A DNA stretch of 64,000 nucleotides, from assembly GCF_000165425.1 (NCBI RefSeq), contig NW_001798971.1, forward strand, positions 74,151 to 138,150, in the 5' to 3' direction. How positions within the stretch are numbered: position 1 is the stretch's first letter; each line of letters starts with the position of its first letter. Positions 4,440-58,667 of the stretch are shown here, piece by piece. Under the pieces are notes generated by a model, which did not search any database, was not told the origin of the DNA, and was given only the letters and a program-made list of their open reading frames with translations. The DNA comes from Paramecium tetraurelia (taxonomy: Eukaryota > Ciliophora > Oligohymenophorea > Peniculida > Parameciidae). A program made the translations under genes and the position numbers.

Positions 4440-4805
4440 AATTTTAATATCTAACTTCGGAATTACTCTAATTTCTTGGCCACAGCTGGCGAAGATCATT
4501 AAATCAATGACTCCACCACCTGTGAATTCCTATATATATTCTTTTATTAAATATCTATCAGATGTATGAACAACATAAACTCATGATGAAGAAAAAGGGA
4601 GCAAAAGCAAAACGACCTATTTTAAATAATTGTATGCATTTTTGTATATTATGAAAGCATATAATATAAAGAAATCTAATATCAACTCCTTGAATATAGT
4701 ACGCTTCCTATGATTTTTCCAGAAAATACACTTCAAAAGATTTCCAAAGGTTTCTTTTGTAATAAGCTGTGAACTCAAAGTATAAACCAAAGAATAAGAG
4801 CATTT
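4440..4805 (-). pseudogene. Decayed glutathione S-transferase copy
   Basis: Read on the minus strand, pieces resemble the neighbouring GST in the same order but not in one frame. An FSGKIIGSV segment matches FSGEIIGTF. RFAFAPFF matches DFAYAPIF. A final FASCGQEIRVIPKL segment matches the position of YSKQILSLPGV. At the DNA level about 20 of 25 bases agree around + strand 4708-4733 versus 4004-4028. No N-terminal CPY motif is evident. I read this as a tandem duplicate lost by mutation. A short hydrophobic frame across it (minus, from about 4803) is probably fortuitous. Confidence 0.55.
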
Positions 4806-11672: not shown

Positions 11673-13808
11673 TCAATGTAAATTAGTGCATCCTTCATGA
11701 ATGTTTCTAAGTTCAGTTTCATTGGCTGGAGTTTATGAAATAGTAGATTTCCAGTGTGTTTTAAGAACATCAGCAGCAAACTCAATAAATAATGTGTCTT
11801 GAATCATACAAGCATGTCCACAATGGTCGATTCCCTTAAAATGATAAATGAAATAAATTTACAGTTTATCCAAATTTGCAAGAACAAGTAAGTCCTAAAT
11901 ATCCTGACTCAGTGAATTGTCTTTGTCCTTGAGCATCTTTTGAATCATAAATAGATGAGACGGCATCTCCATTATATTATGAACAATACTCAACCAATTT
12001 AGTTGGAATAGTGGTTAATCCATGGTTGTGTTCATATATCCATTTGATACCTGGAGTCATGGCTGAGGAGGCAAGAACTGTGCTGTCTCCAATGGCTTTG
12101 GTGATATGATCTGGGAAATAGAAATCATCACTAGACTCAACAATAGGTTTAGGTTGTTTCTTGTATTCAAATTGGAATGGAGTCATTTCATGAGCAGCGT
12201 AGACTATAACCATAGGTACTCCTGGATGTTCAACATTATTGGCTTTTTCTCTTTTAGTTTCTTCAACATAATCTAATATTTATTTGGCATCATTAGCAGC
12301 GATGGTGTCATTAATAGCTTCTTTGGTAGATTCTTCAGTTGAATAATACAATTTGTCAACGACTTTCAAAAAGTGTTCGCTCATATCATGCATTAACAAT
12401 TAGCAATGATTGGATCTATCAGCAAAATCAGCCCCACAAATCTCACTAGGTTCTGGGAACCAAGGTAGAGGATTTGCTCTTGTTGGTCTCTTTCCAGTTG
12501 AAATGAACTCGGTATCCCATTTCATTCTGTCAAGAATTTCTTACATCCATGGTTCATCTCTGAATCTTGTGAATGTATCCTTGGGATATAAATCCACAAT
12601 ACTGGCAGATGTACGAGCCATCTTCCTTTGAGCATACCAGTTAATACCAGCATCCAGGATTAACACTTTAAACATAAAGCTGTCATCTCCACCTACTTAA
12701 GGTTTGAATGTTTTAGTTGCTCCCAAAAGAGGTCCAGCAATTGTCACAATACCAGCTACTTTATCCTTCTATGCTTAAGTCATTGAGTACACTGCCTCTG
12801 TAGAATGAAGAGAACCCAAAGAATGTCCAAAGATGTAGGTTTTCTTTCCTGTCAATCTATAGAATGTTTCCACAGACTTCTTGATGTATTATTGAGATTC
12901 TGATGCTGCAATTGATTTTCTGAAATCATAGGGAGCAGCTTGCATTGTTAATCCTGGAATGTAACCCATGTTTTTAAGAGTGTCTGAGAAAACATGATAA
13001 CCTTTAGGATCACACATTGCTGCTTTGATAAGGGAATCAGTGGCTAACTCTTAGATGGCAGTTGTTCCACATTCATTATCGATTGATTTGGGAGTGTTAC
13101 CAGCCCAAGTGATTTCAATACCTGGGGCAGCTGTATATCTGTCTCTTGGATCCTTTTTAGATCTATCATAATAAAGTTCAATAAAATCTCCAAAGCATTT
13201 ATCCTTCTTGTTGGTCATTGCAATTGAAAATGGACCACTTAATGCACCTATCCACAATCTGTACTCTTCGCTTGGTTTCTTCAACCAGAATTTAGAGGCA
13301 CTGCAAGTTTACCAACCACAATTTTCAAAGATATCTGGTCTTTTTGCTTATAAGATTTCGCAATCAATTTTTACCTATTAGACTATAGAATATGACATTT
13401 ATACTTATAATGCTGTGCCAATCAATCCAGGTACTAAGATAGCTGGTTAACAAGGACCATTGATGAATTCATTCATGTAATTTTATAAGGTCATTTTGGT
13501 GTGATCTTTTCCATTTGTACAAATGTGAGCTGTGCTTTAGAGGAAGTCAGACATCTTTTCTTTACGTAATCTTTCTTGTTCTTGATAGATTTGTTCATGA
13601 TAATCTCTAAAATTATTTAATTCTATAATTACTCATATGCTGACTGTGGTTTCCAGTTTGGATCAAATCTGCTAACTCTTTTCATGCTTCCATCAGTGGA
13701 GACTATGAATGTGTCACCCTCAAACCATGGGTTATAATCTGTGTTGTCAAGATAAGGCACTATTGACAGTGTTCCAATTGCCACAATAGCAAGCAATTAC
13801 TTAATCAT
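11673..13808 (-). CDS. Secreted LCAT/PDAT-type acyltransferase or phospholipase
   Basis: 683 residues, ATG 13808, introns 13607-13632 (26 nt), 13375-13404 (30 nt) and 11835-11862 (28 nt), TGA 11673-11675. The first 20 residues are a hydrophobic signal peptide. ILVPGLIGTALQ then VKIDCE aligns with the oxyanion-hole region of lecithin:cholesterol acyltransferase. YIFGHSLGSLHS near residue 310 is the nucleophile elbow with the catalytic Ser. Near the C-terminus NGDAV and IDHCGHAC supply candidate Asp and His. The family transfers or hydrolyses acyl chains of phospholipids outside the cell or in the secretory and digestive system. The 30-nt intron contains no in-frame stop. I call it an intron because removing it aligns the LCAT motif. 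Confidence 0.9.
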
Positions 13809-54100: not shown

Positions 54101-54342
54101 TTGATGGTCAGGAATAGGAGATGAGAAATGAAGAAAACAAGGTTAATAAAGGGATGTAGATTGAGGAACAATAAGTTTTGGAAGAAGAAAGACAAATTGA
54201 TTAATAAGAGGTTTAGGAGAATGTGGGAGCAAATGAGGCAAAATAAGGGATGGATATTATATAAGATGGTAAATTACTTGCTTATTTAGAAAAAGTGAAA
54301 TTGAATCAAGAGGAGTAGAAGGACAAGGCAGAAGAGAGTTGA
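51140..54342 (+). CDS. Long coiled-coil protein
   Basis: 1038 residues; introns 51226-51247 (22 nt), 51447-51465 (19 nt), 51758-51780 (23 nt) and 52774-52795 (22 nt); TGA 54340-54342. Apart from two short interruptions, the whole chain is heptad-repeat helix rich in Glu, Lys, Gln and Leu (NELEEINIDLNNKL, KKRALEEEIQNLKNDNENY, REELHQKDRQIKELEGG). The last 90 residues are acidic. It resembles basal-body, cytoskeletal or golgin-type rods in texture, but coiled coils align with everything, so no name is justified. The 19-nt intron would be the shortest in the window. ATG 51140 is the first in frame. Confidence 0.82.
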
Positions 54343-54445
54343 CTGTGATTTCATAAATGTATTTTTACGATGAAATAATGAATGTTAATAATAAACTTCA
54401 ATTGACAACTGTTACTACAATTTTTGATTAATAAAATATAAATAA

Positions 54446-56982
54446 ATGCCAGCTGAATGTGTAAAAGTCATTGTAAGAATGCGTCCATTCAATCAAAGAG
54501 AAACGGAGAATGGAAGCAAACCATGTGTGGTAGTTTATGAAGACACCAACACTGTGGAATTAAGAAATGTATTCTATTTAATCATTCATTCCTTAGTCAT
54601 AGGATAATGATGTGAAATCGTATACATATGATTACGTGTTTGGATCAGAGACACCTCAACTATCCATTTATCAGAAAACTGCTTTCAACTTGGTAGAGAG
54701 TGTAGCAGATGGTTATAATGGAACAATATTTGCATATGGTTAAACAGGTATTAATATTCAATTATCGTACAGGTTGTGGCAAAACATTCACTATGATTGG
54801 AGACCCATCTAGTGTAATAATATTATTCATTATTAGGAAACAATGAAGGGAATCATACCTAGAACTTTTGATCAAATTATCAGCATTATAAATAATAACT
54901 CAGACTCAAACAAAAAATTTCTACTTCGATGTTCATACATAGAAATATACAATGAAGAAATACATGATTTATTAAGCAAAGATGTGAAGCAGAAATATGA
55001 ATTAAAAGAGAGATAATAAGGTGTCTACGTTAAAGATCTAAACATAGCCGTGGTTAGAACTACTTAAGAAATGGATCGATACATGTAATTGGGTACATAA
55101 AACAGATCAGTTGGAGCCACAGCCATGAATAAGGAATCAAGTCGTAGTCATTGCATTTTCACTGTATACATAGAATGTTCTGTTACAGACCAAAAAGGAA
55201 ATGAGAGAATTACTGCTGGAAAATTAAACTTGGTGGATTTGGCAGGTAGTGAAAGATAATCAAAAACCTAAGCCACAGGTGACAGATTAAAAGAAGCAAC
55301 AAAAATCAATTTATCACTTTCAGCTTTGGGTAATGTCATTTCAGCACTTGTTGATGGTAAAACATAACATATTCCTTACAGAGATTCTAAATTTGACAAG
55401 ATTATTACAGGATTCTTTGGGAGGAAATACAAAAACAATAATGATCACAGCTATCAGTCCATCTGATTTCAACTTTGATGAAACTTTGTCTAGTTTAAGG
55501 TATGCATCAAGAGCTAAAATGATTAAAAATCAACCTAAAGTAAATGAAGATCCAAAAGATGCTTTATTAAAAGAATAGGCTGAAGAGATCAAAAAACTTA
55601 AAGAAATGCTGTCCAAATAAGCAGCAGGTTAACCGATATCTATGGATGCCTTTTAGCCAATTGCTAAATCAGAAAACAATTCAGAGCTGGCAAGATTGAA
55701 AGCAGAGAATGATAGATTGAAGGAGAAGAGTAAGGCCTAAGCAGGAGGTGGACCAACTGAAGAGAAACTTAAAGAATTACATGAATTTAAGGAGAAGAAC
55801 AATTAGTTACTATAAGAGAAGGAAAGAATTGAAATGGAAGTAAGAGAGAAGGAGATTTAAGCAGAATAAGAACGATAAGCCAGGAAGAGATTGGAAGATT
55901 TATTGAAAGAAAAGGAGTAGATGATGGTTTAAGGTGGCAGAGGTACTGAAGACGATAAAAAGAAGTATAAAAAATTGAGACAAGCTATTGATTTATAAAA
56001 AAAAGAGCATGAGGCCCTTATTAGTTAATAGGAATAGTAATAATAAGAACTATTGTAAATTGAGACTAAGTATCAAAGTGTACAGGAAGAGGTTGAAAAA
56101 TTAAGGAAACTTGTTAAATTTTTGAGAAAGAAATTAGAAGAGGCTTAAAATGAGTAGAAAGATTTAAAGCAAGAAGTTGAATATGAGAAAGAAGATCTGT
56201 TGGATACGATTAGAAGTTAGAAAAAAGAAATCAAATTATATTCTGGCATAGTTAAAATGATGTTTAATCAAACTGAGTTAGAATCTCTTCAAGCAGCATG
56301 TGAATGGGATGATGATTCTTCGGAATACAAGATTCCTCCTTTCAATTTCAAAGCTAAGAAAGTCAATTTTCCTAATTTGCCTTATAAACAAGGTAATCAT
56401 ATTAATTGAAACTAGCTATCGATTTAATTGAGCAAGAAAAGGCAGAAAGAATTATTGAAATAAATTCTCGATAATCTGATAAAGGTAGTTACTATGATTC
56501 TGAATACAATCAAAGAATGATTTCCTCAAAACAACAAATAAAGGGTATACTCTATTTTTTCAATGTTAGATTCTCAACAAAAATAAAATGGTACAAGTTA
56601 GCCTCAGTTGGATAGAGCCTAATTAGTGGCTGAGAAGATAAAATTGAATTATTAGATGCTCGAAGAAAAAGAAGGAAAATATAGATACTCGAATGAAGTT
56701 TCCAATCAGTAATTGAACGAGAAGAAACCAAATCAAAAAATAATATTAAGTCCTATTGATAATCGAGGAAACACAGTCCCCAATTTTCCAAGTCAATATG
56801 GATATAATAGTAATACAAACAGCAGCAATTTATCACAAGCAACACCACCATCTAATAAAAAAAGTATGATCAAACTTTTATTACTAGATGTTAATCTATA
56901 GCCTTTAGAATCAAAACCATAGGTTCCAGGACCTGATGAATTATAAAGAAGAAAATAGCATCAGAGAGTCTAACAAATTTGA
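54446..56982 (+). CDS. Kinesin-2-type motor protein, frame interrupted once
   Basis: About 795 residues once a single extra base is ignored. Introns: 54569-54596, 54748-54772 (inside the P-loop), 54814-54836, 56393-56415, 56545-56569 and probably 56864-56887 (24 nt, no stop). Motor motifs: [14 protein letters not shown] at the N-terminus, P-loop [16 protein letters not shown] (switch I), DLAGSERQ (switch II) and [28 protein letters not shown]. The neck [15 protein letters not shown] is characteristic of kinesin-2 (KIF3/KIF17). A coiled-coil stalk and low-complexity tail follow. Kinesin-2 drives anterograde intraflagellar transport. Between DSK and LTR (around 55392) one T is in excess, shifting the frame by +1. 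See findings. Confidence 0.88.
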
Positions 56983-57378: not shown

Positions 57379-58667
57379 ATGAGAAATCAAATCACTTCTC
57401 ATGTAACTAACATTATCTAATTTTAATAGAGTCCTTTTAGAACAACACAGTCTATAATCAGAGATAGTCCCCATACTTAGTTGGATGAGTCCCGTATTTC
57501 AAACAACCGAGTTCCACAAAATAGAGAATCTATGAGGGCAAGAATGTTGATTAACTAATCTCATAATAATATCCAGAATTAGGGGTAATAAGTCAGAAAA
57601 TAAATTGCTAATGAAAGAACATAGTCAAAAGGAGGCAATCCAAATGAATTTAATCCCAAAAAATTTATAACCAAAGAACTCAAAGCATTTTATATTGATT
57701 AATTTAATAGGAATCAGACATTATTGATATCAAACAAGTTTTCGATTACTATGATTCAGAATAAGCAGGAATATTATCTCCCAATGATTTAGAATAATTG
57801 TTGATTAGTTTTGGATATCACCCTTCTAAGGAAACCTTATATGGTAATTAAATCCAATTATTCTAAATAGAGATATTTTCTGAATTGGATGAAGAAGAAT
57901 TAGGAGGAATAACATTTCAATATTTCTTGGCCATTCTAAATCAGGATAAAACTAAATCAGAGAAAAAGGATGTAATTAGAAGAGTTTACAGAAAGTACGA
58001 TAAAAGCAACAAAGGATATATCACTTTACAAGATCTAAGATAAGTTGTGTATAAAGATTTGAAAGAAGATATCGATGAAGAGGTATTGGCTGAAGTAATA
58101 GAATAAATCTGATATTCAAGATCTTTAGAAAGACCGACTCTAACCAAGATGGAAAAATGACATTTGAAGATTTTTATAACGTCATTACCAAAAAGGTTTA
58201 TTATTGATATTATTTATCCGTACATATTTAATTATAATGTCCTGTATTATATAATTAACCAATAGAGCAAAGCGATCCTTATCACAGAGTATTTTTCAAT
58301 TTAATAAGATCCTACTCGATAGCCTCCTCATAAAATTATATTGCCTAAACTCTTTGTGGAGAGAGAAAGAGCAATATCCCTTGATAGACGTACCCAAAAT
58401 AAGAAAGTTATTTCGAACTCACCTAAACCCTTTATACATTCTCCTAAATTAATTGCTAAGTCAGCTTAAACAGAATTTAATCATTTGAAATTGTCATAGT
58501 GCTCCAAACAATCTGTTGTTTTAGAAGGCAAACAATTTAAAAATACCATAAGTAGAAAACTCAGATAATTACCCATAAATTCAAATGACTTTTGTTAAGC
58601 TGGTTTTGAAACTAGTGACACAGAATTTGATGATTTTTCTTTAGAAGCATATCTTAAAAGATAATGA
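57379..58667 (+). CDS. Four-EF-hand, centrin-like protein with C-terminal extension
   Basis: 388 residues if a 70-nt intron (58196-58265) is real, otherwise 258 residues ending at TGA 58205-58207. Other introns: 57685-57710 (26 nt, GC-AG) and 58095-58120 (26 nt). A disordered N-terminal 100 residues precede four EF-hand-like units: FDYYDSEQAGILSPNDL, FSELDEEELGGITFQYFL, YDKSNKGYITLQDL and the canonical TDSNQDGKMTFEDF. Only the last has all standard ligands. Spacing is centrin/calmodulin-like. The extension (residues 259-388) is polar, with an acidic end TEFDDFSLEAYLKRQ. Centrin relatives act at basal bodies and the contractile infraciliary lattice in Paramecium. That role is inference. Confidence 0.8.

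Follow-up and report, generated by a model that had tools for sequence, protein, structure and literature searches.

The 64,000-nt stretch of Paramecium tetraurelia DNA analysed here (the window) carries on its forward strand, at 54446-56982, a gene for an OSM-3/KIF17-like kinesin-2 motor, which runs from ATG to TGA through seven exons and six short introns of 23-28 nt. Genetic code 6 applies, with TAA and TAG read as glutamine in genes of this genome. This code and the short introns are those of a Paramecium macronuclear genome, and one of its phosphoglucomutase copies (contig C35) matches PDB 1kfi, the P. tetraurelia parafusin, without any difference at residues 1-56, 58-159 and 235-475, an intron being read through at residue 57. 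The exon/intron model was built from an alignment of five copies of the gene, and the features of the locus are as follows.

54446..56982, forward strand: kinesin-2 gene (OSM-3/KIF17-like) with its frame broken once; from the five-copy alignment, with Pfam PF00225 matched on both halves
54569..54596, forward strand: intron 1 (28 nt)
54748..54772, forward strand: intron 2 (25 nt, ends CAG)
54814..54836, forward strand: intron 3 (23 nt)
55357..55381, forward strand: GTA...CAG segment GTAAAACATAACATATTCCTTACAG (25 nt), intron-like by chance and coding DNA in paralogues
55392..55394, forward strand: TTT, one base longer than in all eight paralogous loci, where the frame breaks; from the alignment of paralogues
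55464..55466, forward strand: TGA that would end a 314-aa product (end of the open frame 54237..55466)
56393..56415, forward strand: intron 4 (23 nt)
56545..56569, forward strand: intron 5 (25 nt)
56864..56887, forward strand: intron 6 (24 nt)

At the 3' end of intron 2 the copies differ: the window copy has CAG, the counterpart on contig C20 (locus L009) would end in AAG, and others have TAG.

The kinesin motor domain was recognised in two pieces, with PF00225 scoring 325.2 bits upstream of the break (profile positions 1-283) and 51.8 bits downstream of it (285-327). Searched against solved structures, the motor gave kinesin-2 proteins as its top matches (OSM-3, KIF3B, KIF3C and a chain named kinesin-2, PDB 2vvg). 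The best of these was OSM-3 (PDB 7a40/7a5e; 306.9 bits over residues 1-290), a homodimeric kinesin-2 of the KIF17 type, and KIF3B (PDB 3b6u), which belongs to a heterotrimeric kinesin-2, was nearly as close at 301.9 bits. The gene is thus probably an ordinary kinesin-2 motor, OSM-3/KIF17-like, its class being decided solely by the small difference between the OSM-3 and KIF3B scores. Unlike OSM-3, the window copy is broken as assembled. It probably belongs to a group of five close copies, consistent with the known whole-genome duplications, and the living gene is probably intact. Among the matches listed for Paramecium kinesin-2 and P. tetraurelia OSM-3, no title or abstract opening concerned this gene.

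The break lies within the sequence AGAGATTCTAAATTTGACAAG (55380-55400), which includes the TTT at 55392-55394. One extra T splits the conserved motor block as RDSK|LTRLL, with the first part in the frame of exon 4 and the rest in the next frame; the assembled sequence yields a product of 314 aa. Both frames and the alignment of paralogues confirmed the initial annotation, which had placed one surplus base in this TTT. Its statement that the coding sequence is one base too long after removal of introns was likewise reproduced by our own six-intron model, in which the exons total 2389 bases (1 mod 3). Within these exons, the extra T is the only length difference from the closest copy, on C20, that is not divisible by 3, and no further exonic frame break was found. 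The T run at the site is short, extended from two to three, and does not amount to a long homopolymer.

For comparison with paralogues, which the initial annotation had proposed as a check, a DNA search of the genome (69.07 Mb in 231 contigs) was carried out and found eight other loci paralogous to the window kinesin. The extra base was absent from all eight, leaving the window as the sole carrier among the nine aligned loci. Because the split block is conserved in every one of the eight relatives, chance was set aside as an issue. An exact pattern allowing both lengths was also sought in bacterial genome records, regarded as potentially host-contaminated, and gave 0 matches in a set from which records near the window's genome may be missing.

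Selection on the gene was then assessed from substitutions on either side of the break. Between the window and C20 copies, Ka/Ks was 0.034 for the 290 codons preceding the site and 0.035 for the 327 codons that follow. Changes were assigned to branches with the copy on contig C13 as outgroup, which restricted the part after the site to 145 codons alignable with C13. On the window branch, 24 synonymous and 6 non-synonymous changes (among the latter, G to R at residue 164) fell before the site, compared with 20 and 1 on the C20 branch; after the site, the corresponding counts were 10 and 0 for the window and 14 and 2 for C20. By these measures both sides of the break evolve as normal coding sequence: the relaxation downstream of the break that would mark a pseudogene was not seen in Ka/Ks, nor in the branch changes of the alignable part. 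An old pseudogene was rejected on Ka/Ks before and after the site together with the branch changes. The six upstream non-synonymous changes are the only sign of relaxed selection and hint at a mild relaxation.

Divergence between the window and C20 within 54446-56545 was seen to rise near 55646, from about 7-11% to 11-22%, a step absent from the pair formed by the copies on contigs C226 and C23. The step could reflect gene conversion affecting the motor half, or else a weaker constraint on the stalk.

Frame breaks elsewhere in the assembly were surveyed by comparing the window with C20 over 12 aligned stretches (about 23.6 kb of the window). Indels not divisible by 3 and more than 60 columns from the stretch ends numbered 34. 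Judged from frames and GT...AG pairs, 16 of these were intronic, 15 (58199 and 58233 among them) fell in intergenic DNA or beyond clear coding sequence and 3 were exonic (breaks 1-3 below); indels nearer the stretch ends, among them break 4, were inspected by eye. Kinesin motors in the genome were collected by a profile search (124 matches), and eight split or short ones among them were examined. The clear exonic breaks met were these.

Break 1, window 55392: one-base insertion in the kinesin-2 gene
Break 2, window position 12261, gene 11782-13632 (reverse strand): one-base insertion in the C20 copy
Break 3, window position 12584, gene 11782-13632 (reverse strand): one-base insertion in the C20 copy, less firm
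Break 4, window position 58158, EF-hand-like gene: one-base insertion in the C20 copy
Break 5, locus L010 (contig C13), about position 4670, kinesin paralogue, where the coiled coil begins: A run longer by one A
Break 6, locus L037 (contig C217:194400-195700), kinesin motor gene: one-base insertion relative to its partner on C16
Break 7, locus L044 (contig C19:49300-50500), kinesin motor, with no partner compared: seemingly one extra base, less firm

All seven were one-base insertions, so that insertions outnumber deletions in the way looked for in sequencing or assembly insertion error; ambiguous indels at window 58199 and 58233 and at position 2627 of locus L013 (from the C14/C200 comparison) were not counted. 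The gene at 11782-13632 is open in the window copy (616 aa; 617 codons with the stop) and in no single frame in the C20 copy, whose break at 12584 might instead, though less likely, be an intron of 18 or 19 nt. In the EF-hand-like gene (window 58121-58260), the C20 counterpart looks degraded, and the two ambiguous window indels lie at its end. The C13 kinesin gives a 438-aa product as assembled, while beyond the break its protein sequence remains conserved, in the next frame, as far as intron 4; a 5-nt gap of this copy in exon 5 was considered as a second break and rejected, exon 5 being in frame. The apparent break on C19 falls shortly after SKLTRIL, near the place homologous to the window break. 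No clear exonic break was found between C226 and C23 (7.4 kb compared), and two suspect places between C14 and C200 (4.6 kb compared) were discarded, both lying past stop codons. The kinesin motors on C185, C187, C155, C14, C230 and C61 showed intron-sized gaps or GT...AG junctions.

Sanger reads at 13x underlie the macronuclear genome assembly of P. tetraurelia, and polishing with Illumina data is described as having taken out 10,339 insertions and filled in 929 deletions, both of 1-2 nt, besides correcting 13,758 substitutions (PMC3464196). The v2 annotation is based on the same assembly after polishing (PMC5485702). The window site resembles the insertion errors of 1-2 nt reported for the Sanger assembly (PMC3464196) in being one extra base with no other damage, an insertion and not a deletion. 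At the published rate (72 Mb), 0.34 insertions would be expected per 2389 exonic bases, with a probability of 0.29 for at least one. If the window comes from the unpolished assembly, as we infer from the breaks themselves, such an error in this gene calls for no particular explanation. The surplus T would then have arisen as an insertion error of the kind frequent in the original assembly, and the base would be absent from the organism's own DNA. With the base missing from all relatives and the gene otherwise under selection, we place the probability that the extra T is a one-base sequencing or assembly insertion error at roughly 85%. The initial annotation had listed error, programmed +1 frameshift and inactivating mutation without choosing among them; the published error list and the insertion-only pattern support the first best, recent inactivation is possible, and programmed frameshifting is not supported, on evidence given below.

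Several observations weigh against an error. The published rate predicts about 3.4 insertions for the 23.6 kb of window aligned with C20, against 1 recognised, non-coding ones being unrecognisable by this comparison. The present 231 contigs (69.07 Mb) do not obviously match the published 188 scaffolds larger than 45 kb that make up 96% of 72 Mb (PMC3464196). The shortness of the T run and the excess of non-synonymous changes on the window branch before the site also count on this side, and some of the other breaks, such as that in the degraded C20 gene at 58158, may be genuine decay. Judged on sequence comparison, the case for a sequencing error is strong, yet not closed.

A real and very recent inactivating insertion, under which the window copy would be a duplicate in the first stage of decay and C20 would maintain the function, is the best of the alternatives, although an unlikely one. 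Its transcripts would contain a premature TGA and could encode no more than a truncated motor of 314 aa. Kinesin copies are redundant in this genome, the window branch has the greater number of non-synonymous changes upstream of the site, and one copy of a duplicated gene is usually lost in the wake of a whole-genome duplication (PMC3091696). Against this, the 2389 exonic bases hold no second disabling change and Ka/Ks after the site is as low as before it. Since none of the 10 polarised window changes after the site (145 codons) is non-synonymous, any period of neutral evolution would have lasted less than about 8% of the window branch; a mutation of this kind, if real, must be very recent.

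Splicing of the segment at 55357-55381 as an intron of the window copy is far less probable. The segment has the right size and GTA...CAG boundaries, and its removal gives an open frame of 787 codons; however, this restoration is unspecific, as excising any segment whose length is 1 mod 3 has the same effect, and splicing would exchange 12 conserved residues for EILN. The same GT...AG segment is present in C226 and C23, where it is coding and no extra base follows, whereas C20 and C13 have no GT at that place. Because it is coding DNA in two paralogues, its likeness to an intron is taken as coincidence, which bears out the doubt already voiced in the initial annotation, namely that the segment restores the frame at the cost of conserved residues.

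Programmed +1 ribosomal frameshifting, by which a ribosome would pass over one base at AAA TTT and go on to complete the motor, is very unlikely because the site has no stop codon and the extra base occurs in none of the paralogues. A shift site that is conserved among relatives and has a stop or slow codon was thus not found here; the first stop in the zero frame comes only at 55464-55466. In favour of such shifting, the frames on either side are intact and a hairpin spanning the site is more stable than shuffled sequences (z -2.5; 3 of 200 shuffles as good). Against it, the sequence downstream of the site shows no more stable folding than shuffles do (z 0.0), and the hairpin is also present in the C20 copy, which has no extra base, at almost the same stability (-16.1 versus -17.1 kcal/mol). 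The likeness to Euplotes is that of a +1 shift in a ciliate gene; TAA and TAG are the shift codons there, whereas in the present genome both are sense codons. Recoding confined to this single copy, with the cell reading past the extra base by slippage or by correction at the RNA level and the gene kept under selection, is equally improbable.

The extra T is therefore most likely an error and not biology, and its relevance is to annotation alone. A gene caller would either truncate the kinesin or invent the 25-nt intron, at the cost of a conserved stretch of motor sequence. If the assembly is unpolished, about one such insertion per 7 kb is to be expected.
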